A stretch of 64,000 nucleotides of DNA from a virus. How positions within the stretch are numbered: the first letter of the stretch is position 1; each line of letters starts with the position of its first letter. Below are positions 8,599-36,861 of this stretch, piece by piece. The stretch covers positions 1-64,000 of IMG/VR virus record IMGVR_UViG_3300031277_000001; one strand, written 5' to 3'. The notes under the pieces were generated by a model that was given only the letters and a program-made list of their open reading frames with translations, was not told where the DNA came from and made no database searches. Position numbers and translations under genes: made by a program.

Positions 8599-8925
8599 TC
8601 ATACTTCCTCCTCTGGTGTCACGTCTCTCACAACAGGATCAGTATTCCTGGGAAGCATTTCCCCCACGATACTGACACCGCCCCCGAGATCAATCTCTAC
8701 TTTACCACCCCTGAGATCCTTGATCCTCGACACGGAGCCACGTAGGGAGATCACCTTCCACTCCTTGTCGTCCGGCTTCCTGCCGCCGTCACCCGTATTG
8801 GCGGATTCCACGTGCACCAGGACTGCCCCGCAGATCGTGCAGTCCCCCGCCAGGTAGTGCTCTGTGACCTTCCCGCAGCGCTCGCAGTACTTGTACTCCA
8901 CGGCTCGAACCATGTTCACACTCAC
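8599..8925 (-). CDS. Zinc-ribbon protein (108 aa)
   Basis: CERCGK at residues 14-19 and CTICG about 15 residues later form a classical zinc ribbon, followed by a beta-rich tail with LRGSVSRIKDLRGGKVEIDLGG. The start overlaps the end of the DUF5662 gene by four bases. An internal start at residue 5 (MVRAVEYKY) is possible. Function unknown. Confidence 0.75.
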   Translation of the reverse strand: MSVNMVRAVEYKYCERCGKVTEHYLAGDCTICGAVLVHVESANTGDGGRKPDDKEWKVISLRGSVSRIKDLRGGKVEIDLGGGVSIVGEMLPRNTDPVVRDVTPEEEV

Positions 8926-9629
8926 AACGACATCACCTCCCGGGACTCCTCGTACTCCCGCTGCTCCTTGCTGTCAGACCACTCGATCAGGTACTCCACG
9001 AGCTCCCGCGTCCTCACGTGCAAGCACATCCTGTGACAGTTCACAGCGTACCACCTCCGCGTCGCCTGGTAGTGGTCGTCCCCGTGCAGGTAGGTCCCCT
9101 GAGCCTTCCCGGCCGCCACCCAGTCCGCCACCATCTCCTTGACGCACTCGACAGGCATCTCGAGCACCTTGATGCCTCCGAGGTCCACGGGGAGAGTCCA
9201 GTACTGCCAGTGGTGGGCGTTCCTCTTCTGGTGGAGGAACCAGGCGTGGTCGAACGCAGGGTCACCGGTGTCCGTCGGCTTGTAGTACCCTATGCCCTTC
9301 TTCCTCTCCGCAGCCGCTACATCACGGAACCTACCGTGGAAGTGGTTGGCGTAGGGGAAGAACTCCGACGGCCTGAACTTCGACAAGTCGTGGACGACGC
9401 CCCGCCAGGGCATCCCCATCCTCGCGCACTCCAGGAACACGAACCACTTGTGCTTGATCACGTACTTGAGGTACGTCCGCCAGACGATGAGGAGCAGGAG
9501 CCAGTGACGAAGCCTCGCGCCTGCTGCATGGGGCTGGCGCTGCATCGCCGACTCACCGCCCTGCTTGGAAAACTTCTTGGACTTTTCCACGCTCTTCTCT
9601 TGCACTTCTCGTACCTCCTCTCGATTCAT
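8922..9629 (-). CDS. DUF5662-type metal-binding phage protein
   Basis: 235 residues. The HDLSKF motif, then HQKRNAHHWQYW and a late HGDDHYQ form the signature of the DUF5662 phage family, which looks like a divergent HD-type metal-dependent phosphohydrolase core. Such proteins occur in many large phages; the substrate is unknown. A basic N-terminal extension of about 40 residues precedes the domain. ATG at 9629 lies three bases after the stop of the gene upstream. Confidence 0.7.
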   Translation of the reverse strand: MNREEVREVQEKSVEKSKKFSKQGGESAMQRQPHAAGARLRHWLLLLIVWRTYLKYVIKHKWFVFLECARMGMPWRGVVHDLSKFRPSEFFPYANHFHGRFRDVAAAERKKGIGYYKPTDTGDPAFDHAWFLHQKRNAHHWQYWTLPVDLGGIKVLEMPVECVKEMVADWVAAGKAQGTYLHGDDHYQATRRWYAVNCHRMCLHVRTRELVEYLIEWSDSKEQREYEESREVMSL

Positions 9630-16161: not shown

Positions 16162-17436
16162 TCAAATATGAAATGGCTGGACGTCCTTCTCCGTCCTACC
16201 TGTAGAGAACAGGAGGAGGTCAGGAAATGCTGCAACCACATCACTCGACCTCACTCCGGATTTCTCATGATGGATTAATCTAAGCAAACTAAGAGTAGAC
16301 ACTCCAGCAATAGTCCTCAACCTGAACTCCTTGGTAAAGTCCGTCAGGTGGTCCAAACACGTCAATGCCACACCCACCTTGGCAGTACTGGAAGGCCTAT
16401 ACTTCACCTTACCCAGATCTTCTTTGATTTCCTTGACGGCCTGCTTACACCAATCAAGATCGAGGTAGCCGTACCTCATGGCTCCCTGGAACTTGTTCTC
16501 AGGATTAGTGTAGTTCTCGACTCCCTTATAAGGGAGTCCGTCCACCTCGTTGAGTACGGGACCATCACCGTGTCTCGTCAAGTAAGTCCTGGTGACCAGG
16601 TAGACGTCGAGCTCCACCTCGGAGCGGAGACGATTGAGAACCTCCACGACGTTCCGCATCCCCGTGCTCGACCGCGTCAGATACGGCATGAGATCCTTTC
16701 GCTTCTGATCCAGACGCATGCCCTGGGCTCCCTCGAAGACCACCTGTCTGCCGGGCTCCTTGGCACAGTACCTCTCCAGGAGGTCCGAGGTCTCCCACAT
16801 CACAGAGTTCTTCATCATCCTCCTCGCGTAGTCCACGAAGTTGTCCACGATTGCGAAGCCTCCCATCTTGTCGATGGCCCACCTCCGGAACTCACGATCA
16901 TCCAGATGCAACTTCTCCAGACGGTAAGGGAGATACTCGTTCTCTATAATGTACAAGACGTCCTTGAGCTGTCCCTCTGACTTGTCTACGAGATCCCTGG
17001 CCAGGATCTTGAGCTGACGATACTGACTGCGCTCCACGGTCTCGTTGATCCCCAAGCCGCAGGTCATCGTAGTCCCCTCCTGCTTGGAAGCATACTCGTT
17101 GATCAGCATGTCGTACGGCGTGGAGATCCTGCAGAGAGGATCGACAAAGACCTCCCTGACAGGGGCCTTCTTGTCGAGGAGCTCCTTGAGTTCCTTGAAG
17201 AACATGAGGGGATTGACGATGAAGTGTGGAGCGAAAAGAGTTCGGGCACCCCGAAGAGTGCCCGATCCGAAGTGATGAAATATGTGCTCCTGGCCACTGG
17301 ACGTCTTTACACCATGACCAGCCTGAGCTCCACCGTTGAACCGCACGTTGAGGGTACGTGCATCTGACAGATAGTTGACTATGTGACCCTTGCCCTCATC
17401 ACCGTAGTTCATCCCAACAACTGCTGAAATCTTCAT
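16162..17436 (-). CDS. purA: Adenylosuccinate synthetase (PurA/PurZ family, PurA-type catalytic residues)
   Basis: 424 residues, close to the 432 of E. coli PurA. The P-loop GDEGKG at residues 12-17 keeps Asp13, and GGAQAGH places His41 exactly where the catalytic His lies in PurA. VFEGAQG and TRHGDGP blocks are also conserved. PurA joins IMP and aspartate using GTP to make adenylosuccinate. Phage PurZ, which makes the 2-aminoadenine precursor from dGMP, replaces Asp13 with Ser or Gly, so this protein looks like the PurA type, though divergent elsewhere (EGTTMTCGLGIN). It probably boosts purine supply for phage DNA synthesis. Substrate choice between IMP and a (d)GMP analogue cannot be settled by eye. 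Confidence 0.85.
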   Translation of the reverse strand: MKISAVVGMNYGDEGKGHIVNYLSDARTLNVRFNGGAQAGHGVKTSSGQEHIFHHFGSGTLRGARTLFAPHFIVNPLMFFKELKELLDKKAPVREVFVDPLCRISTPYDMLINEYASKQEGTTMTCGLGINETVERSQYRQLKILARDLVDKSEGQLKDVLYIIENEYLPYRLEKLHLDDREFRRWAIDKMGGFAIVDNFVDYARRMMKNSVMWETSDLLERYCAKEPGRQVVFEGAQGMRLDQKRKDLMPYLTRSSTGMRNVVEVLNRLRSEVELDVYLVTRTYLTRHGDGPVLNEVDGLPYKGVENYTNPENKFQGAMRYGYLDLDWCKQAVKEIKEDLGKVKYRPSSTAKVGVALTCLDHLTDFTKEFRLRTIAGVSTLSLLRLIHHEKSGVRSSDVVAAFPDLLLFSTGRTEKDVQPFHI

Positions 17437-28444: not shown

Positions 28445-31063
28445 TCATTCCCCCGCCTTCAACGTCCCGCAACTCTCCATCTCGGCCCAACTCCCGTCAA
28501 CAGCCGAGCGCTCTTTCTCAACGGTGAGCGGAACTATGATCCAAGGCCAGAACTCTCGGACCTTCTTCGTACCGTAGTCGTACACGAGGCGATCAAACAA
28601 CTTCTCGTCGTCGGGATGCACGTCCGCAACAATAGAATCATGAATCTGCCCTATTACAAAAGATCTATCAAGATGTTGGGTAGCCTCGGACACCTTGACA
28701 AACGTCCAGAGGAGGATATGAAACGCGCTTCCCTGGACCCTGTAGTTGATCACCTCGTTCCTCTTCATGGGACCCCAACATCGAAAGTCCGTGTACATGT
28801 CGATATAACCGCACTTCTCGTAATCCACAACCGTTTGCTTCTTCCATGCGGCGTACACCTTGAATCGCTCTCCCCAAAATCTCCTATCACACTTCTCAAC
28901 ATGGGACTCGAAGTCGTCAAAATCTCGGACGCCCTTCTCACGTAGCCATCCCCGGGTCTCCTCGGACATCCTCTTCCACATATCTGGAGCAGTCTGCTCG
29001 TAGAAGGAACCATAGAAGGAAGGAAACACGAAACCATTCTTGGCGAGGTACCTCTCTTGCTTTGACACCTTCTCCTTGTCCTTCTTGAAGATCTCAGCAG
29101 CCATGTCACGATGCATGTCGGCGTTGGGGTCCTCGATGTACCGGATGAGATTGGGATCCTTGTTGTAGCAAGCCGCTGTGCACACTTCAGTCTGCTTGAA
29201 GTCATACTCCACGAGGCGATTTCCTCTCCTGGGAACAATCAACGAACGTATGACGTGCTTGATCTTCTCGTCTCTCTTTGGAACGTTCTGGAAGTTCGGA
29301 CTACTTGAAGAAGATCGAAACGTATCGACGTTACCCAAGCCGAAGAAGGGGTGGATGTATCCTCGAACCATCTCTCTCTCATACTGTCCCAAGTATGTCT
29401 TCCGAGCCTTACTCCATCGCCGAAACTCGAGGACTTCCTTGGCGAGCGGGACATCAAGACCTTCAAGAGCCTTCTCGTCCACAGACCTCTTGCCTCCAGA
29501 TGTCCGTGCCCTGGATCTCACTTCGAGGATGTCAAAGAGAAGATGTGCCAACTGATCTGGAGAACCTACGTTGAACTTATTCTTGCCATCCCATCTCTTC
29601 ACCTCGGGGCTATCATAAATCCTCTCTTCTATGCAGCGGATCCTCCTATCAATAGAGGCGCGCACCTCTTCCAATTTCTCCCTTTCAACACGGACACCAT
29701 TGTTCTGTGCCCTTGCAAGCCACTGACTTGACTCAAAGAAGAATCTCGCTCCGGTCAGGAGTCGCTTCTTTGAGTCAAACTCCTTCCTTTGGATCACAAA
29801 CAACTCCCTAGTAAAAAAAGAGTCCTCCCCGTTGTAAAGCAAGACCTTCCCCATGGGAGCTTCCTCTATTCTATTAAAAGCGTTAGCAGAGTCTGCATCC
29901 TCCCCAGGAGATGCGGTCGTAATGTATGGATCAACGTCTTCATCATAACCTAGGACCCCTAGATTTTTGTAGACCTGAAACTTCAAACCGACGTTCTTTC
30001 TATTGTTGAGACAATGAGCCGCGAGCATAGTGTCCCACCTCGGCCCCGAAATCTTCTTCCCTAGGCAGTACAAAGACCACATTTCCTCGAAAGACATGTT
30101 GTGACAAATCTTGCCTATGTCAGAGTCAAGAAATCTTCCCCAAGCTTCCTTGACTTTATCATCTGAGAACGAAAAAGCCTTGGTATCATGTCCGTCACAG
30201 AAAGATACAGACACAATCCTATGTCCTTCTCTGTGAGGTTTCTTCCCTGTGGTTTCATAATCAAAAGCAACCCAGGAGGGACTCCTCATCAAGAGATCCT
30301 CTATCCAAGCAACAGCTAAATCTGGGTCCTCCGTGATGTCAACTTTACTTCTCTTGTATGAAGGGAAATCAGCAGAAACAACAGATAGCACTGCACGTAA
30401 CTGCTTCTTATACTGTGCTTCGAGAACCTTGTCGCCCCCCAAACGTACAAGATATGAAGGATGATAGACGGGACAAATCCACATTCCCAACTCCTGGTCA
30501 GGAATGACCTCTCCCACCCAATTAGAATACTTGATCTTCTTGATCCTTCCCACCATGCGAGGACCCATGTAGGCATCAAAGGCAGATTCACCTACGAGGA
30601 GAACTGCCTTGGGCTTGTACATCTCAATCGTGTTGAGAAGATTTCTTCTACAGATCCGCAGTTCCTTAGGACTTGGACTTCTATTCTTGGGAGGTCTACA
30701 AATCAACGCATTGGTCTTCCAGAAGTCCTTATCAAGATCAAGGTCAAGTTCTGACAAGATGTCACGAAAATACTGTCCTGTCTTCCCTACAAGCTGAGTA
30801 CCTTTCCTGTCCTCGGTCTCTCCTGGGGCCTCGGCCACAACCAAAATCTCCTTGTCCCCACGACCACTAGGCTGCATCTTCGGAGATTCACAAGTCTTGT
30901 AGAGCCCACAATTCTCACAAGTCTCAACCTTCGTAGAACGCGAGGAAGAGGACCTCCCCCGAGTTGGAGCAACACCTCTTCTTTCCCGCTCGGACTGCTT
31001 CTCGGCCTTTGTCTTCATAGCATAGAGGCCGACATTCATCTCTTCAAAGAAACCACCCTTCAC
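28445..31063 (-). CDS. DNA polymerase, family A, with fused uracil-DNA glycosylase and 3'-5' exonuclease domains
   Basis: 872 residues. Residues 45-230 form a family 4-type UDG: Fe-S cysteines C49, C52 or C58, C122 and C138, VAEAPGETEDRKG, ICRPPKNRSPSP and YHPSYLVR at 200-207. A DnaQ/Pol I-type exonuclease begins near 262 with FDYETTG (Asp268, Glu270). The C-terminal family A polymerase shows motif A YDFKQTEV, the O-helix AKNGFVFPSFYG and motif C QIHDSIV with the catalytic Asp. This is the replicative polymerase; fused UDG domains are, as I recall, also present in SPO1-like phage polymerases. Whether the UDG excises uracil or senses it ahead of the fork is unknown. GTG at 31063 overlaps the clamp stop; ATG at 31039 is an alternative start. 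Confidence 0.92.
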   Translation of the reverse strand: MKGGFFEEMNVGLYAMKTKAEKQSERERRGVAPTRGRSSSSRSTKVETCENCGLYKTCESPKMQPSGRGDKEILVVAEAPGETEDRKGTQLVGKTGQYFRDILSELDLDLDKDFWKTNALICRPPKNRSPSPKELRICRRNLLNTIEMYKPKAVLLVGESAFDAYMGPRMVGRIKKIKYSNWVGEVIPDQELGMWICPVYHPSYLVRLGGDKVLEAQYKKQLRAVLSVVSADFPSYKRSKVDITEDPDLAVAWIEDLLMRSPSWVAFDYETTGKKPHREGHRIVSVSFCDGHDTKAFSFSDDKVKEAWGRFLDSDIGKICHNMSFEEMWSLYCLGKKISGPRWDTMLAAHCLNNRKNVGLKFQVYKNLGVLGYDEDVDPYITTASPGEDADSANAFNRIEEAPMGKVLLYNGEDSFFTRELFVIQRKEFDSKKRLLTGARFFFESSQWLARAQNNGVRVEREKLEEVRASIDRRIRCIEERIYDSPEVKRWDGKNKFNVGSPDQLAHLLFDILEVRSRARTSGGKRSVDEKALEGLDVPLAKEVLEFRRWSKARKTYLGQYEREMVRGYIHPFFGLGNVDTFRSSSSSPNFQNVPKRDEKIKHVIRSLIVPRRGNRLVEYDFKQTEVCTAACYNKDPNLIRYIEDPNADMHRDMAAEIFKKDKEKVSKQERYLAKNGFVFPSFYGSFYEQTAPDMWKRMSEETRGWLREKGVRDFDDFESHVEKCDRRFWGERFKVYAAWKKQTVVDYEKCGYIDMYTDFRCWGPMKRNEVINYRVQGSAFHILLWTFVKVSEATQHLDRSFVIGQIHDSIVADVHPDDEKLFDRLVYDYGTKKVREFWPWIIVPLTVEKERSAVDGSWAEMESCGTLKAGE

Positions 31064-32118: not shown

Positions 32119-32278
32119 TCCGATCTCCTCTCTCATATTCTTCTTTCTTCTTCATGAAATTATCAAGTTCTGACTTGTAAAAGTACGACTTCAAGATGTG
32201 TAAATCTTTGATCTTGTCTTCTATCTTCTTGAGATAATCCTCATTCAAGTTGTAGAATCCAGCATAGAAAATAATCAT
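32060..32278 (-). CDS. Small hypothetical protein (72 aa)
   Basis: Starts MIIFYAGFYNLNEDYLKKIE, mostly helical and charged, Ser/Ala-rich end. The last 59 bases overlap the clamp gene in another frame, which is longer than usual, so the C-terminus may be less constrained. ATG overlaps the upstream stop (ATGA). No family recognised. Confidence 0.55.
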   Translation of the reverse strand: MIIFYAGFYNLNEDYLKKIEDKIKDLHILKSYFYKSELDNFMKKKEEYERGDRNASGSKSASGEIADVDDRG

Positions 32279-32613
32279 GACAACCCCATCGACTTCAAGA
32301 TCTCCGAGCCATCACAGAAAGAAGGACCGCGGAGAGCCGCTTCCTTCTGCTTACTCCTCTCTTCTACTAACTTGACGACAGCATCAAAGACATAGCACTG
32401 CATCTTCATCTGCTCACTTTTGTTCAAAGTCGCAGGGAAGGGGAGGGCTTGGAGAGTCCCAACGGGTTCCCACATGTCTTGAGATATACGATGCAACTCA
32501 TCCAAGGAAAACTCTCCAAGAATCAAATCAACACGAACCATCAAAGGCTTGAGGAGCTCCGCCAACAAAATATTCCTCTCAAGTTTATTGTCTCCCACGG
32601 GTTCCTCCATCAT
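32275..32613 (-). CDS. Hypothetical protein (112 aa)
   Basis: Starts MMEEPVGDNKLERNILLAEL; predicted all-helical, with one Cys pair far apart. It overlaps the stop of the dpdA-like gene by four bases, and the next gene by four, so it is translated with the modification operon. No family recognised; could be an accessory to DNA modification or replication. Confidence 0.65.
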   Translation of the reverse strand: MMEEPVGDNKLERNILLAELLKPLMVRVDLILGEFSLDELHRISQDMWEPVGTLQALPFPATLNKSEQMKMQCYVFDAVVKLVEERSKQKEAALRGPSFCDGSEILKSMGLS

Positions 32614-33488
32614 GTAAAATTGAATCCTTGAGCCAAGAACTCCTTGCCCTTGTAGCGTCGGTGAGGAAAAGGCTCAAGCCTGGACAAAAATTCTTCAAAG
32701 AAGAGGATATTGATCACCTCCCTCTGGCGATGGGAGTTACTAAGCCCTTCTTCAACAACTTTCTCCATACCATTCTCAGAAATAGACTTCCCCCATGAAA
32801 ATCCTCGCATGGACACATACTCCATGACCTTCTCTTTCTCCTGAGTAGATAGCGTGGAGAAACGCCTCATCACGATCTCTCTCATCGTTCCGCGAAGAGT
32901 GATCTTCGTGGCCAAGGGCGTCCTGTCATACATGAACTCTCCCTTGGCGTTCCAGCGAGGAACGAGGATCCCTCCATATCCTGCACAGAGACGCCAGGTC
33001 ATGGAATCACAGGAGAACCACGGGTACCTGTAGAGCATCTCAACTGAGGTCACTGCGAATCCATGCGTCTTGACCAACGGATACCCCGCGTCGTCTGTCG
33101 TGTGCATCATGCACTCATCAAGCCAGCGGACCTTGCTTCTGTGCACCGAGTCGTTGGCGGGGGAGAGTCCTATGTAGGGAATCTCCTTGACCATCTTCTT
33201 CAACCACTTCCAGTCTTCATGTTGGTGGAAGACGTGAATCAACTTGTCCTTCTCGATGCCCTTGGAAAGCATGTACTCGTAGTTCGCGTAGCCCTTGCGG
33301 GCGGACTCCTCAAACTCGTCCCGAGATGGCTTGCGACCAAACTCTCCAGGAATGGAATCCAGATTGACGTAGTAGGAGAACTTGTCCCTGTTCTTCTTGA
33401 TGTACTCCACATACTCGTCAAGATCAACAGCGTCCTTCTGCGTCCACGCCGAGAATGCTCCACTATCAAGGAGCATCGAGAAGTTCAT
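32610..33488 (-). CDS. dpdA: DpdA-like DNA 7-deazaguanine transglycosylase
   Basis: 292 residues. LLDSGAFSAW at 6-15 is the hallmark of phage DpdA proteins, relatives of tRNA-guanine transglycosylase with a TIM-barrel fold. NLDSI at 42-46 and FSCDSMTW at 158-165 provide conserved aspartates; Asp161 is the likely nucleophile that displaces guanine. DpdA exchanges guanine in DNA for a free 7-deazaguanine base (preQ0 or preQ1). It ends the QueD-QueE-FolE-QueC-YkgJ-QueF operon, so substrate and enzyme are made together. The sequence preference for modified guanines is not visible. Confidence 0.8.
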   Translation of the reverse strand: MNFSMLLDSGAFSAWTQKDAVDLDEYVEYIKKNRDKFSYYVNLDSIPGEFGRKPSRDEFEESARKGYANYEYMLSKGIEKDKLIHVFHQHEDWKWLKKMVKEIPYIGLSPANDSVHRSKVRWLDECMMHTTDDAGYPLVKTHGFAVTSVEMLYRYPWFSCDSMTWRLCAGYGGILVPRWNAKGEFMYDRTPLATKITLRGTMREIVMRRFSTLSTQEKEKVMEYVSMRGFSWGKSISENGMEKVVEEGLSNSHRQREVINILFFEEFLSRLEPFPHRRYKGKEFLAQGFNFT

Positions 33489-33922
33489 ATCTTGCTCCCC
33501 ACATGAATCTTCGTCGTGATTCCTCCTCGAATAGCCACCTCAATGTCCACGGACAAATCATCAGGACCAACAACACTATGAAAATCTTGATAAATCTTCG
33601 CCGCAAGGTGCTCATGAGAGATAGGAAGTTCCCGATAGTCCAAGAGATAAAACTTCAACGCCTTGAGCTCCGGGACACTCTTGCGAGGTACATATCTGAT
33701 GCGAAGCTTGTTGATGTCTGGCAAGAACGTCACAGGACACAAAGAAATCAACTCGTCCGTGGCGTACTCAACAACCTCTGCCACAAGTCCCACATAAGGG
33801 ATCAACACAAGATGAAAGTGAGGAAGTACGACGTCCATGGAGTCCTGCACTCTCTGCCTATAGATTGCCTCCGTAGCGTTCTCCATCGTAGTGAGAGGCT
33901 TCCACTTCCTAACATCATCCAT
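33485..33922 (-). CDS. queF: QueF-like 7-cyano-7-deazaguanine reductase
   Basis: 145 residues, the short unimodular size. Catalytic Cys62 in LCPVTFLPD with Asp69 matches QueF, where the Cys forms a thioimide with preQ0. The NADPH-binding QueF motif is retained as ELKALKFY (85-92), followed by DYRELPISHEH with the conserved His103 and Glu104. QueF reduces preQ0 to preQ1 with two NADPH. QueF-L proteins, which make other derivatives, lack the NADPH motif, so true reduction is favoured. The start at ATG 33922 overlaps the end of the upstream gene by a few bases; longer starts are rejected. Confidence 0.8.
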   Translation of the reverse strand: MDDVRKWKPLTTMENATEAIYRQRVQDSMDVVLPHFHLVLIPYVGLVAEVVEYATDELISLCPVTFLPDINKLRIRYVPRKSVPELKALKFYLLDYRELPISHEHLAAKIYQDFHSVVGPDDLSVDIEVAIRGGITTKIHVGSKI

Positions 33923-33924
33923 CG

Positions 33925-34557
33925 TCACCATCCATAACCTCCTTGTAGTATCTGCATGTCCTTGAGCTTGTTCTCCTCGAAACCGAAGTAGTTCAACCAG
34001 TCCAGGAGTCTCTTGAGCTTTCTCCGTATGTCCAGGGACTCCTGCGGTGAGCAGTAGTCGCGTATGATGCACTTGCAACCCCTCGTCTTGCCATCACACT
34101 GGAGCATGTTCCAAGCCCTCCCGAACGTCCTTGTCATGAGAATAGCTCGCTCCTTGTTGTGAAGAAACCTCAATATCTCGAAGTCGCAGGAGAAGGGTCG
34201 AAGATCGTGAATCTTGCAGCGTCCCGTGATTTTCTCGAGATACTTGCAGTGGTAATCTTTGTTCTCCTCCTGGAGATCCGAGAACACCGTGTAGTTCTTG
34301 TCGTTGATTCTTATCTGCCGAGGAGTGAGCTTCAACGCGTCTATGGCTTCCCTCTCCGAGGGGAGATAGTCCAAGGAAAATCGAGGACAGCACGCCCCGC
34401 ATCCAGAAGGGCAAGTGAACTCTCGCATCAACTTGGGAGAGATCTGCAACTTCTTCGAGGGTTCAACAAGCACTCCCTTGTAATAGAAAGGACTACTTGC
34501 ACAAGAAGCCACGTAAGATAACATGATCTTGTCTACAGAATCAGTGTACTGTGGCAC
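33925..34557 (-). CDS. YkgJ-type cysteine-cluster protein
   Basis: 210 residues with CPSGCGACC near residue 50 (CX3CX2CC), then CKYLEKITGRCKIHDLRPFSC and CDGKTRGCKCIIRDYC: the pattern of the YkgJ zinc/iron-chelating family. Start is GTG at 34557 with AAGGAGAACAC upstream. Members are linked to metal clusters and sometimes to radical or oxidative chemistry. Here the gene sits between queC and queF in the modification operon, so a role in tailoring the deazaguanine base or in metal supply for QueE is suggested; there is no direct evidence. Confidence 0.75.
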   Translation of the reverse strand: MPQYTDSVDKIMLSYVASCASSPFYYKGVLVEPSKKLQISPKLMREFTCPSGCGACCPRFSLDYLPSEREAIDALKLTPRQIRINDKNYTVFSDLQEENKDYHCKYLEKITGRCKIHDLRPFSCDFEILRFLHNKERAILMTRTFGRAWNMLQCDGKTRGCKCIIRDYCSPQESLDIRRKLKRLLDWLNYFGFEENKLKDMQILQGGYGW

Positions 34558-34566
34558 GTGTTCTCC

Positions 34567-35319
34567 TTAAAAGGGCGTTCCTTCGAGATCTGGGTCACCT
34601 GCGTCCGACGCCATCTCCTTGGTGACGCGACGCGGCGTCTCGTTGGTTTCTTCCTCTTGCATCTCTCGTTCAAGGACGTCTTCGTAGTTGGTGTTGTCGA
34701 ATCCCTGGAGAGCTTCCTTGCGCTCCGTGCACGCTCCGCACTTGCCGCAGTGGTACTCTCCTCCCTTGTAGCACGTCCAGGTGTTCCTCCCGAAGTCGAT
34801 GCCGAGACCATGTCCGATGAGTCCTATGGCTCTCTTGGACAAGTAGATGTAGGGAGCCGCAATCATGATGTGCTCGTAAGTCCCCATGGCCATGGACTGA
34901 CTCATGGAGGCGATAAAGTTAGGACGACAGTCGGGATAGATGGCGTGATCTCCCGAGTGAACTCCTATCAAGACACCTGTGCAACCAGAAGATGCTGCAA
35001 CGGCACAGGCGATGGAAAGCATCATCCCGTTTCGAAAGGGAACAACCGTCTTCTTCTGGCTCTCGTCCTCGTAGTGCCCTTCGGGAATGTCATCACCCCC
35101 TTGGAGAAGATTTGATCGAAGCATGGGCAACAGCTGCGAGAGATCAATGACCTCATGGGGAACGCCCAAAGACTCGCAGTTCTTCTTGGCAAACTCCAGT
35201 TCTTTGAGATGCTTCTGTCCATAGAAGAAAGACAGTGCTTTCTTGATGTTCTCCTTTTCCTGGTGGAGCAAGGTGACACTATCCATTCCCCCCGACACGA
35301 TAATCAACTTATCTTTCAT
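34567..35319 (-). CDS. queC: 7-cyano-7-deazaguanine synthase
   Basis: 250 residues. The PP-loop SGGMDS at 9-14 binds ATP; VPFRNGMMLSIA and the four-Cys zinc site (CYKGGEYHCGKCGAC) near the C-terminus are characteristic of QueC. The enzyme turns 7-carboxy-7-deazaguanine into preQ0 with ammonia and ATP. It is a standalone QueC, without the amidotransferase fusion (Gat-QueC) of some phages. Part of the compact modification operon. Confidence 0.93.
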   Translation of the reverse strand: MKDKLIIVSGGMDSVTLLHQEKENIKKALSFFYGQKHLKELEFAKKNCESLGVPHEVIDLSQLLPMLRSNLLQGGDDIPEGHYEDESQKKTVVPFRNGMMLSIACAVAASSGCTGVLIGVHSGDHAIYPDCRPNFIASMSQSMAMGTYEHIMIAAPYIYLSKRAIGLIGHGLGIDFGRNTWTCYKGGEYHCGKCGACTERKEALQGFDNTNYEDVLEREMQEEETNETPRRVTKEMASDAGDPDLEGTPF

Positions 35320-35322
35320 ATC

Positions 35323-35904
35323 TTACCTCCCTACCAATGAAAGAAATTCTGCCCTGACTTCTGGCTGGAGGAATACTCCACGCAGGGCAGATGTGATAAT
35401 TTTGGATTCTTGTTGATATGCTCCCCGCATCTTCATGCAGTAATGTGTCCCTTCAACAAACACAGCCGAACCTCCTGACTGAATGCCTAAAAACAACTTG
35501 TTGGCAATATCCTCAGTCAAAGTCTCTTGAAGAACTGGGCGCTTAGCCAAAATAGAAGACAACCGAGCCAACTTTGATACACCAAGAACGCGGCCGGCGG
35601 GAATGTAGGCGAGGTTGACTGTGTACTCCACGGGGAGGAGATGATGGGGACACATCGAATAGACACGAATCCCTCGAGCTATGATCATCTCTTTACATTC
35701 CCCAGGAAATGTGGCAGAAAGAATCTTTTCTACCTGCATGTCAGTATCACGCAAGCCTCCGAAGATTTCTGCATAGGCTCGAGCAACACGAGCTGGGGTG
35801 TCTTTGAAGTTTTCATCTTGACTGTTCAAACCATAAAGAGAGGCGAGACCTTGTAGTATGAACGCCACTCCATCTTCAATCATCTGAGTTCCATCTCGTT
35901 CCAT
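35323..35904 (-). CDS. folE: GTP cyclohydrolase I
   Basis: 193 residues from ATG 35904, which shares bases with the queE stop (TAATG). The zinc ligands are visible in SMCPHHLLP and in THYCMKMRG, and RVLGVSKLAR is the conserved substrate-pocket segment. It makes dihydroneopterin triphosphate from GTP, the first step to queuosine-type bases (and folate). The placement between queE and queC assigns it to the deazaguanine pathway. Confidence 0.93.
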   Translation of the reverse strand: MERDGTQMIEDGVAFILQGLASLYGLNSQDENFKDTPARVARAYAEIFGGLRDTDMQVEKILSATFPGECKEMIIARGIRVYSMCPHHLLPVEYTVNLAYIPAGRVLGVSKLARLSSILAKRPVLQETLTEDIANKLFLGIQSGGSAVFVEGTHYCMKMRGAYQQESKIITSALRGVFLQPEVRAEFLSLVGR

Positions 35905-36548
35905 TATCGCACTCCTATCAACTTGTGGATTTGCAACGACAATCTCCACTCCAAAGGGAGCTTCTTGACTGCATCAACTGTCGCTTCAACATTCTTGTTG
36001 TCGTTGGGCTGCAAGAAAAAGTGATAAAATCCCTCACGTATGCCTATTCTTCCCAAGAGGGGTTGATAAGGCATAGCAGGAACAACGTATCTTCGCAGCT
36101 CCTCAATAGACTGCCCTGTATACACGAGTTTCAACTCGTCTCCAACGCGCTGCTTCCAGTTGAAATCCTTAGGAGAAACTGTCAACCACTCCACCTTACG
36201 ATGATCAAAATGAAAGTCTCCATTCGTCTCCACATGAACACGAAAACAAGAAGAATGCAAGCATTCTACCAAGTCAAGGAGACCTTGCATCTGGAACGTA
36301 GGCTCGCCCCCAGTGATTACAACACGGTTGCAGTCGGATCTCTCGGCAAGAGTGAGGACCTCGTCCATGATCTCATCGCAACTCATCACAGTAAATGGCA
36401 AGTGAATTGTGTCGCAAAACGAACAAGTTCTATTGCACCCTGAGAAGCGAACAAATATGGCGGGGGTCCCTGTCCAATAACCTTCACCCTGGATGGAGTA
36501 GAAAATCTCGTTGATCTTAATCTTCAACTCAGGACTGGTTGCCGTCAT
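35904..36548 (-). CDS. queE: 7-carboxy-7-deazaguanine synthase (radical SAM)
   Basis: 214 residues. FSGCNRTCSFC gives the CX3CX2C cluster motif at C38, C42 and C45, after the substrate-binding YSIQGEG near residue 17. VVITGGEPTFQ is the SAM-binding GGEP motif. QueE rearranges 6-carboxytetrahydropterin into the deazapurine ring using a [4Fe-4S] cluster and SAM. It overlaps queD by 20 bases. Confidence 0.93.
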   Translation of the reverse strand: MTATSPELKIKINEIFYSIQGEGYWTGTPAIFVRFSGCNRTCSFCDTIHLPFTVMSCDEIMDEVLTLAERSDCNRVVITGGEPTFQMQGLLDLVECLHSSCFRVHVETNGDFHFDHRKVEWLTVSPKDFNWKQRVGDELKLVYTGQSIEELRRYVVPAMPYQPLLGRIGIREGFYHFFLQPNDNKNVEATVDAVKKLPLEWRLSLQIHKLIGVR

Positions 36549-36861
36549 ACGTCACCACCGAACCTTCACTCTCCTCCACATCCACCTTGTAGCAGTAGGG
36601 GATCTGATCACACAACCACTTTGCAATGTTCTCCGCCGTGGGCTGCTCAACATAATCGTTGATAAAGTGATGATCAAGAACGTTGACCGTCTCCTTGATC
36701 TTCGAAAAGTCAAACACCATCCCATTCTCATCGAGACTTTCACGACGACAGTATATTGTAATTTTCCACGCATGCCCGTGAACATTCTGACACTTCGACG
36801 GATAATTGAGATCCAGTCGATGCGCTGCTGCTACAACAACCACCTTCTTCAAGTAGAACAC
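36529..36861 (-). CDS. queD: 6-carboxytetrahydropterin synthase
   Basis: 110 residues with zinc ligands His14, His28 and His30 (NVHGH), catalytic Cys24, DHHFIND at 63-69 and PTAEN. QueD converts dihydroneopterin triphosphate to 6-carboxytetrahydropterin. The start is GTG at 36861, after GGAGAGGTGAAGAA inside the short gene upstream. Confidence 0.92.
   Translation of the reverse strand: MFYLKKVVVVAAAHRLDLNYPSKCQNVHGHAWKITIYCRRESLDENGMVFDFSKIKETVNVLDHHFINDYVEQPTAENIAKWLCDQIPYCYKVDVEESEGSVVTYDGNQS

Follow-up and report, generated by a model that had tools for sequence, protein, structure and literature searches.

Gene content and layout of the cluster

The window, i.e., the whole stretch of 64,000 nucleotides that was analyzed, is taken from an IMG/VR virus record of 65,465 bases. 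It holds a virus-encoded 7-deazaguanine DNA-modification cluster, which lies entirely on the minus strand and is transcribed in the order queD, queE, folE, queC, a gene named here after its CxxCxxCC cysteine motif, queF and dpdA (Table 1). The start of queF is an ATG codon; a nearly matching start position in the nearest relative supports this choice.

Table 1. Genes and sequence features of the 7-deazaguanine cluster (positions in the window)
Feature	Position	Strand	Evidence
queD (6-carboxytetrahydropterin synthase)	36529..36861	-	PF01242 88.6 bits; TIGR03367 82.2 bits (cut-off 89.25)
queE (radical SAM 7-carboxy-7-deazaguanine synthase)	35904..36548	-	PF04055; TIGR04508 115.8 bits; phrog_2076
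folE (GTP cyclohydrolase I)	35323..35949	-	PF01227 175.6 bits
queC (7-cyano-7-deazaguanine synthase)	34567..35319	-	PF06508 190.6 bits; TIGR00364 above cut-off
CxxCxxCC protein, 210 aa	33925..34557	-	PF03692 28.2 bits
Cys cluster C49-x3-C53-x2-C56-C57 of the CxxCxxCC protein	34387..34413	-	kept in 44-45 of 45 relatives
queF (NADPH-dependent 7-cyano-7-deazaguanine reductase), 145 aa	33485..33922	-	PF14489 64.9 bits (cut-off 27.3)
NADPH block ELKALKFY of QueF, residues 85-92	33647..33670	-	E85, K87 and K90 invariant in 51 viral QueFs
dpdA (DNA guanine transglycosylase)	32610..33488	-	phrog_887 174.6 bits; overlaps the queF stop codon

The cluster of the Streptococcus phage Dp-1 likewise brings together QueF, QueC, QueD, QueE, FolE and DpdA, the latter being 32% identical to the window protein, but it includes a QueT transporter gene and lacks the CxxCxxCC gene; its measured base is 2'-deoxy-preQ1 (dPreQ1) (PMC6884629). 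The same seven-gene set as in the window, including QueF, DpdA and the CxxCxxCC protein, is found in Cellulophaga phiSM, Pseudanabaena Pan1 and Mycobacterium Knocker, which differ in gene order and in DpdA sequence, and whose CxxCxxCC proteins are 35-38% identical.

A 112-aa open reading frame (32275-32613, minus strand), the start of which overlaps the dpdA stop codon, is a possible additional cluster gene; it has no match in Pfam, PHROG or NCBIfam. Two further genes on the minus strand are worth recording. An adenylosuccinate synthetase homologue (16162-17436; PF00709, 140 bits) keeps the GDEGKG motif and matches PurZ weakly (NF038379, 43.6 bits against a cut-off of 300); it may be PurA-like or help to make 2-aminoadenine. 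At 28445-31063, a DNA polymerase A carries an N-terminal domain of the uracil-DNA glycosylase superfamily (PF03167, residues 70-211; PF00476, residues 462-831), and its collinear counterpart in L063, a related virus described below, aligns from window residue 47 onward.

DpdA and QueF

DpdA of the window carries D8, H88, H142 and D161, which are invariant in nine viral DpdAs; D8 and D161 correspond to the catalytic aspartates of transglycosylases. With both of these aspartates and its match to phrog_887, the protein belongs to the DpdA transglycosylases. Since QueF usually feeds the tRNA queuosine pathway, the cluster might instead raise queuosine in host tRNA and not be meant for DNA at all. 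This is very improbable, because the transglycosylase adjoining queF is of the DpdA type (phrog_887) and has no Pfam tRNA-guanine transglycosylase match at the threshold used, and because the same type of cluster modifies DNA in Dp-1 (PMC6884629). Elsewhere among the viral loci, several carry more than one DpdA homologue, with three in tandem in L134 (7764-10807) and two each in L017, L116 and L129.

The initial annotation had placed Cys62, Asp69, the motif ELKALKFY (residues 85-92) and His103 in the QueF homologue without giving its strand, and all of them are present in the 145-aa reading frame, His103 being followed by E104. The protein thus has the nucleophilic cysteine, the catalytic aspartate and the His-Glu pair, and its residues 85-92 match the NADPH block pattern E-x-K-x-x-K-x-[YFW]. 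Across 51 aligned viral QueFs, C62, P63, D69, E85, K87, K90, E104, R132 and G133 are invariant. On the stricter NCBIfam equivalog for preQ(1) synthase, TIGR03139, the window QueF scores 81.1 bits, slightly below the cut-off of 86.9, which marks it as a divergent member. No matches were obtained when this single sequence was used as the query against the viral contigs, and a mixed QueF alignment proved too heterogeneous for scanning.

An AlphaFold2 model of the window QueF (pLDDT 94.9) has as its top PDB match B. subtilis QueF 4f8b, a covalent thioimide structure, at an rmsd of 1.3 Å. The two proteins have in common the unimodular fold, the Cys/Asp/His-Glu active site and the E-x-K-x-x-K NADPH block (PDB 4f8b, 4fgc, 5udg), but they are only about 29% identical over the core and differ in their N-terminal parts. 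The assignment of the window protein as a unimodular QueF of the YkvM subfamily, with a predicted NADPH-type nitrile reductase activity, is therefore well supported. Pyrobaculum QueF-L (PDB 5jyx, 5k0p) also shares the fold, the nucleophilic cysteine and the HE pair, but lacks the E-x-K-x-x-K block present in the window QueF.

Phage QueF and QueF-L have been described as hard to distinguish by sequence (Hutinet et al., 2019; PMC6884629). As a negative control we used 26 distinct QueF-L homologues of archaea, taken from Pyrobaculum and further genomes in the same phylum, none of which has the full set of E85, K87 and K90, as had been expected of QueF-L enzymes. All three residues are present in the window QueF, in B. 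subtilis QueF and in a Peteryoungia QueF. With QueF and QueF-L profiles built in the present analysis, the window protein scored 102 bits on the viral QueF profile, from which its own clade had been left out, and 46 bits on the QueF-L profile, while Pyrobaculum QueF-L scored 36 and 114 bits, respectively. By the same motif check, none of the 51 aligned viral QueFs is of the QueF-L type. The QueFs of Dp-1 and HVTV-1, in whose DNA dPreQ1 was detected by LC-MS, both carry the block, so that the check agrees with both QueF viruses tested in that way (Hutinet et al., 2019; PMC6884629).

Since the block is present in the window and viral QueFs including those of Dp-1 and HVTV-1, and the full set in none of the 26 archaeal proteins, preQ0 is very probably reduced to preQ1 here. 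The preQ1 chemistry proposed at the outset from the motif is thus supported by the block, by the profile scores and by the adjoining DpdA with both aspartates. That QueF might act as a QueF-L amidinotransferase, leaving dG+ in the DNA, is very unlikely: HHpred has labelled phage QueF homologues as QueF-L (PMC6884629) and the HEHL region of the window protein resembles archaeal ILHEEL, but the NADPH block is intact, the protein scores more than twice as high on the QueF profile as on that of QueF-L, and viruses with the same motif contain dPreQ1 (PMC6884629).

The CxxCxxCC gene and its association with queF

The gene between queC and queF had been overlooked in the initial annotation. Relatives of its product were found in 27 records of the phage collection, namely 18 from Vibrio phages, seven from Cellulophaga phages, Pan1 and Knocker. 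QueF is encoded in all 27, compared with QueF matches in only some 70-90 of the 50,697 records. Among 47 loci with the CxxCxxCC gene in viral contigs, QueF lies within 10 kb in 36 and elsewhere in the record in a further four; the other seven records are 4-28 kb long. Where QueF lies within 10 kb, the two genes share a strand in each of the 44 pairs examined, and the median gap between them is 4 nt. In L189, the record of locus L047, the QueF match spans one in-frame TGA; either the gene is disrupted or the stop codon is recoded.

In 80 loci collected by DpdA alone, the gene occurs in 8 of the 36 loci with QueF and in 1 of the 44 without QueF nearby (Fisher p = 0.009); the record of the sole exception has QueF elsewhere. 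A test of the association corrected for relatedness had too few independent pairs to reach significance. On a QueF tree the presence of the CxxCxxCC gene changes 22 times, at least eight of these changes being forced by well-supported branches, which indicates that the gene comes and goes among QueF-bearing viruses.

Related viruses illustrate this pattern. Knocker has the gene and Funsized, also a Bclasvirinae mycobacteriophage, does not; likewise, the gene is present in Pan1 but, in the stretch shown, missing from R26L, a member of the same genus. Among the viruses found, the one nearest to that of the window is L063. The two share a collinear stretch of about 18 kb, in which most genes encode proteins 50-76% identical, but L063 carries between queC and queF an unrelated gene for a 223-aa protein (8718-9389) in place of the CxxCxxCC gene. 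This protein matches phrog_1574, a family of unknown function, and contains an IDSD motif that is possibly glycosyltransferase-like. QueF and DpdA are retained in all three pairs (Knocker/Funsized, Pan1/R26L, window/L063), and the gene in the slot is therefore dispensable for making and inserting preQ1; it probably acts after these steps.

The CxxCxxCC family has eight conserved cysteines, at positions 49, 53, 56, 57, 104, 114, 124 and 163 of the window protein. FliB is a lysine N-methyltransferase that acts on a primary amine and binds one [4Fe-4S] cluster via a CX4CX3CC motif (PMC8598068). The aminomethyl group of preQ1 is likewise a primary amine. In twelve FliB homologues the conserved cysteines also number exactly eight and follow the order seen in the CxxCxxCC family, and a comparison of the two families by HHalign gave an E-value of 3.3e-5 (probability 72.5%) over 86 columns, confined to the Cys-rich region and running through the seventh cysteine; the five other cluster enzymes taken as controls reached no better than 0.016. 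This match may reflect membership of the PF03692 superfamily and not shared chemistry. FliB further differs in its length of about 400 aa, compared with 210 aa, and in its protein substrate. Since none of the 45 CxxCxxCC family members matches the NCBIfam FliB model (NF038110), the family is not assignable as FliB and the resemblance is a distant one only.

The cysteine arrangement nevertheless leads us to expect a [4Fe-4S] cluster in the window protein, which is probably a FliB-like preQ1 N-methyltransferase. A search of the PDB with its predicted model gave no match, and in a viral library only three proteins match, at 28-36% identity. Cui et al. reportedly described in 2023 the methylated base mdPreQ1 in phages, together with a preQ1 methyltransferase of unusual fold, DpdM. 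The window protein would resemble DpdM in its expected role, in its association with QueF and in a fold without close relatives, the lack of a PDB match being in line with the unusual fold. We therefore presume that the window protein is a putative DpdM.

Predicted pathway and final DNA base

The substrates, the order of steps, the methyl transfer and the final base are predicted as follows. FolE, QueD, QueE and QueC would convert GTP to preQ0. QueF would bind the nitrile of preQ0 via Cys62 as a thioimide and reduce it with two NADPH to preQ1, the aminomethyl base. DpdA would then exchange guanine in the viral DNA for preQ1; alternatively, preQ0 may be inserted and reduced later by QueF. Finally, the CxxCxxCC protein would N-methylate the primary amine, yielding 2'-deoxy-7-(methylamino)methyl-7-deazaguanosine (mdPreQ1). 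That the final base is methylated seems fairly likely to us, and the explanation as a whole, from preQ1 synthesis by FolE, QueD, QueE, QueC and QueF through insertion by DpdA to methylation, reasonably so.

Plain preQ1 had been the end product envisaged in the initial annotation, which also presented it as a rarer DNA modification than preQ0. dPreQ1 is, in fact, already known from viral DNA, having been measured in Dp-1 and HVTV-1 (PMC6884629), and these two viruses form the precedent for the unlikely case that it is also the final base here, with QueF and DpdA acting as they do in Dp-1 and another task falling to the CxxCxxCC protein, for instance the provision of iron-sulphur clusters for QueE. 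It would fit with this that 28 of the 36 QueF-bearing loci in the DpdA-anchored set have no CxxCxxCC gene. However, the DpdA loci without nearby QueF, many of which have QueE, are essentially devoid of the gene (1/44), which speaks against its serving QueE maturation in general, and the gene usually abuts queF. Because of this tie to QueF and the FliB-type appearance of the protein, a tailored preQ1 is a more likely final base than the plain one, with the methylated form being the more probable end product.

It is improbable that the CxxCxxCC protein modifies preQ1 in some way that is not methylation and so yields another final base. The model of this protein has no PDB match, and the occupation of the slot by a different gene in L063 suggests interchangeable tailoring enzymes, but the cysteine architecture matches that of the amine N-methyltransferase FliB. 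A related and rather doubtful possibility is that the queC-queF slot is an exchangeable cassette for preQ1-tailoring enzymes, in which the CxxCxxCC protein of the window would make an undescribed preQ1 derivative and the possibly glycosyltransferase-like enzyme of L063 another. If this were true, close relatives would switch their DNA chemistry by the swap of a single gene.

Under the preferred reading, in which preQ1 is methylated, the CxxCxxCC gene adjacent to queF shifts the base predicted for this virus from dPreQ1 to its methylated form, and this predicted base matters both for what restriction systems meet and for the mass to look for.
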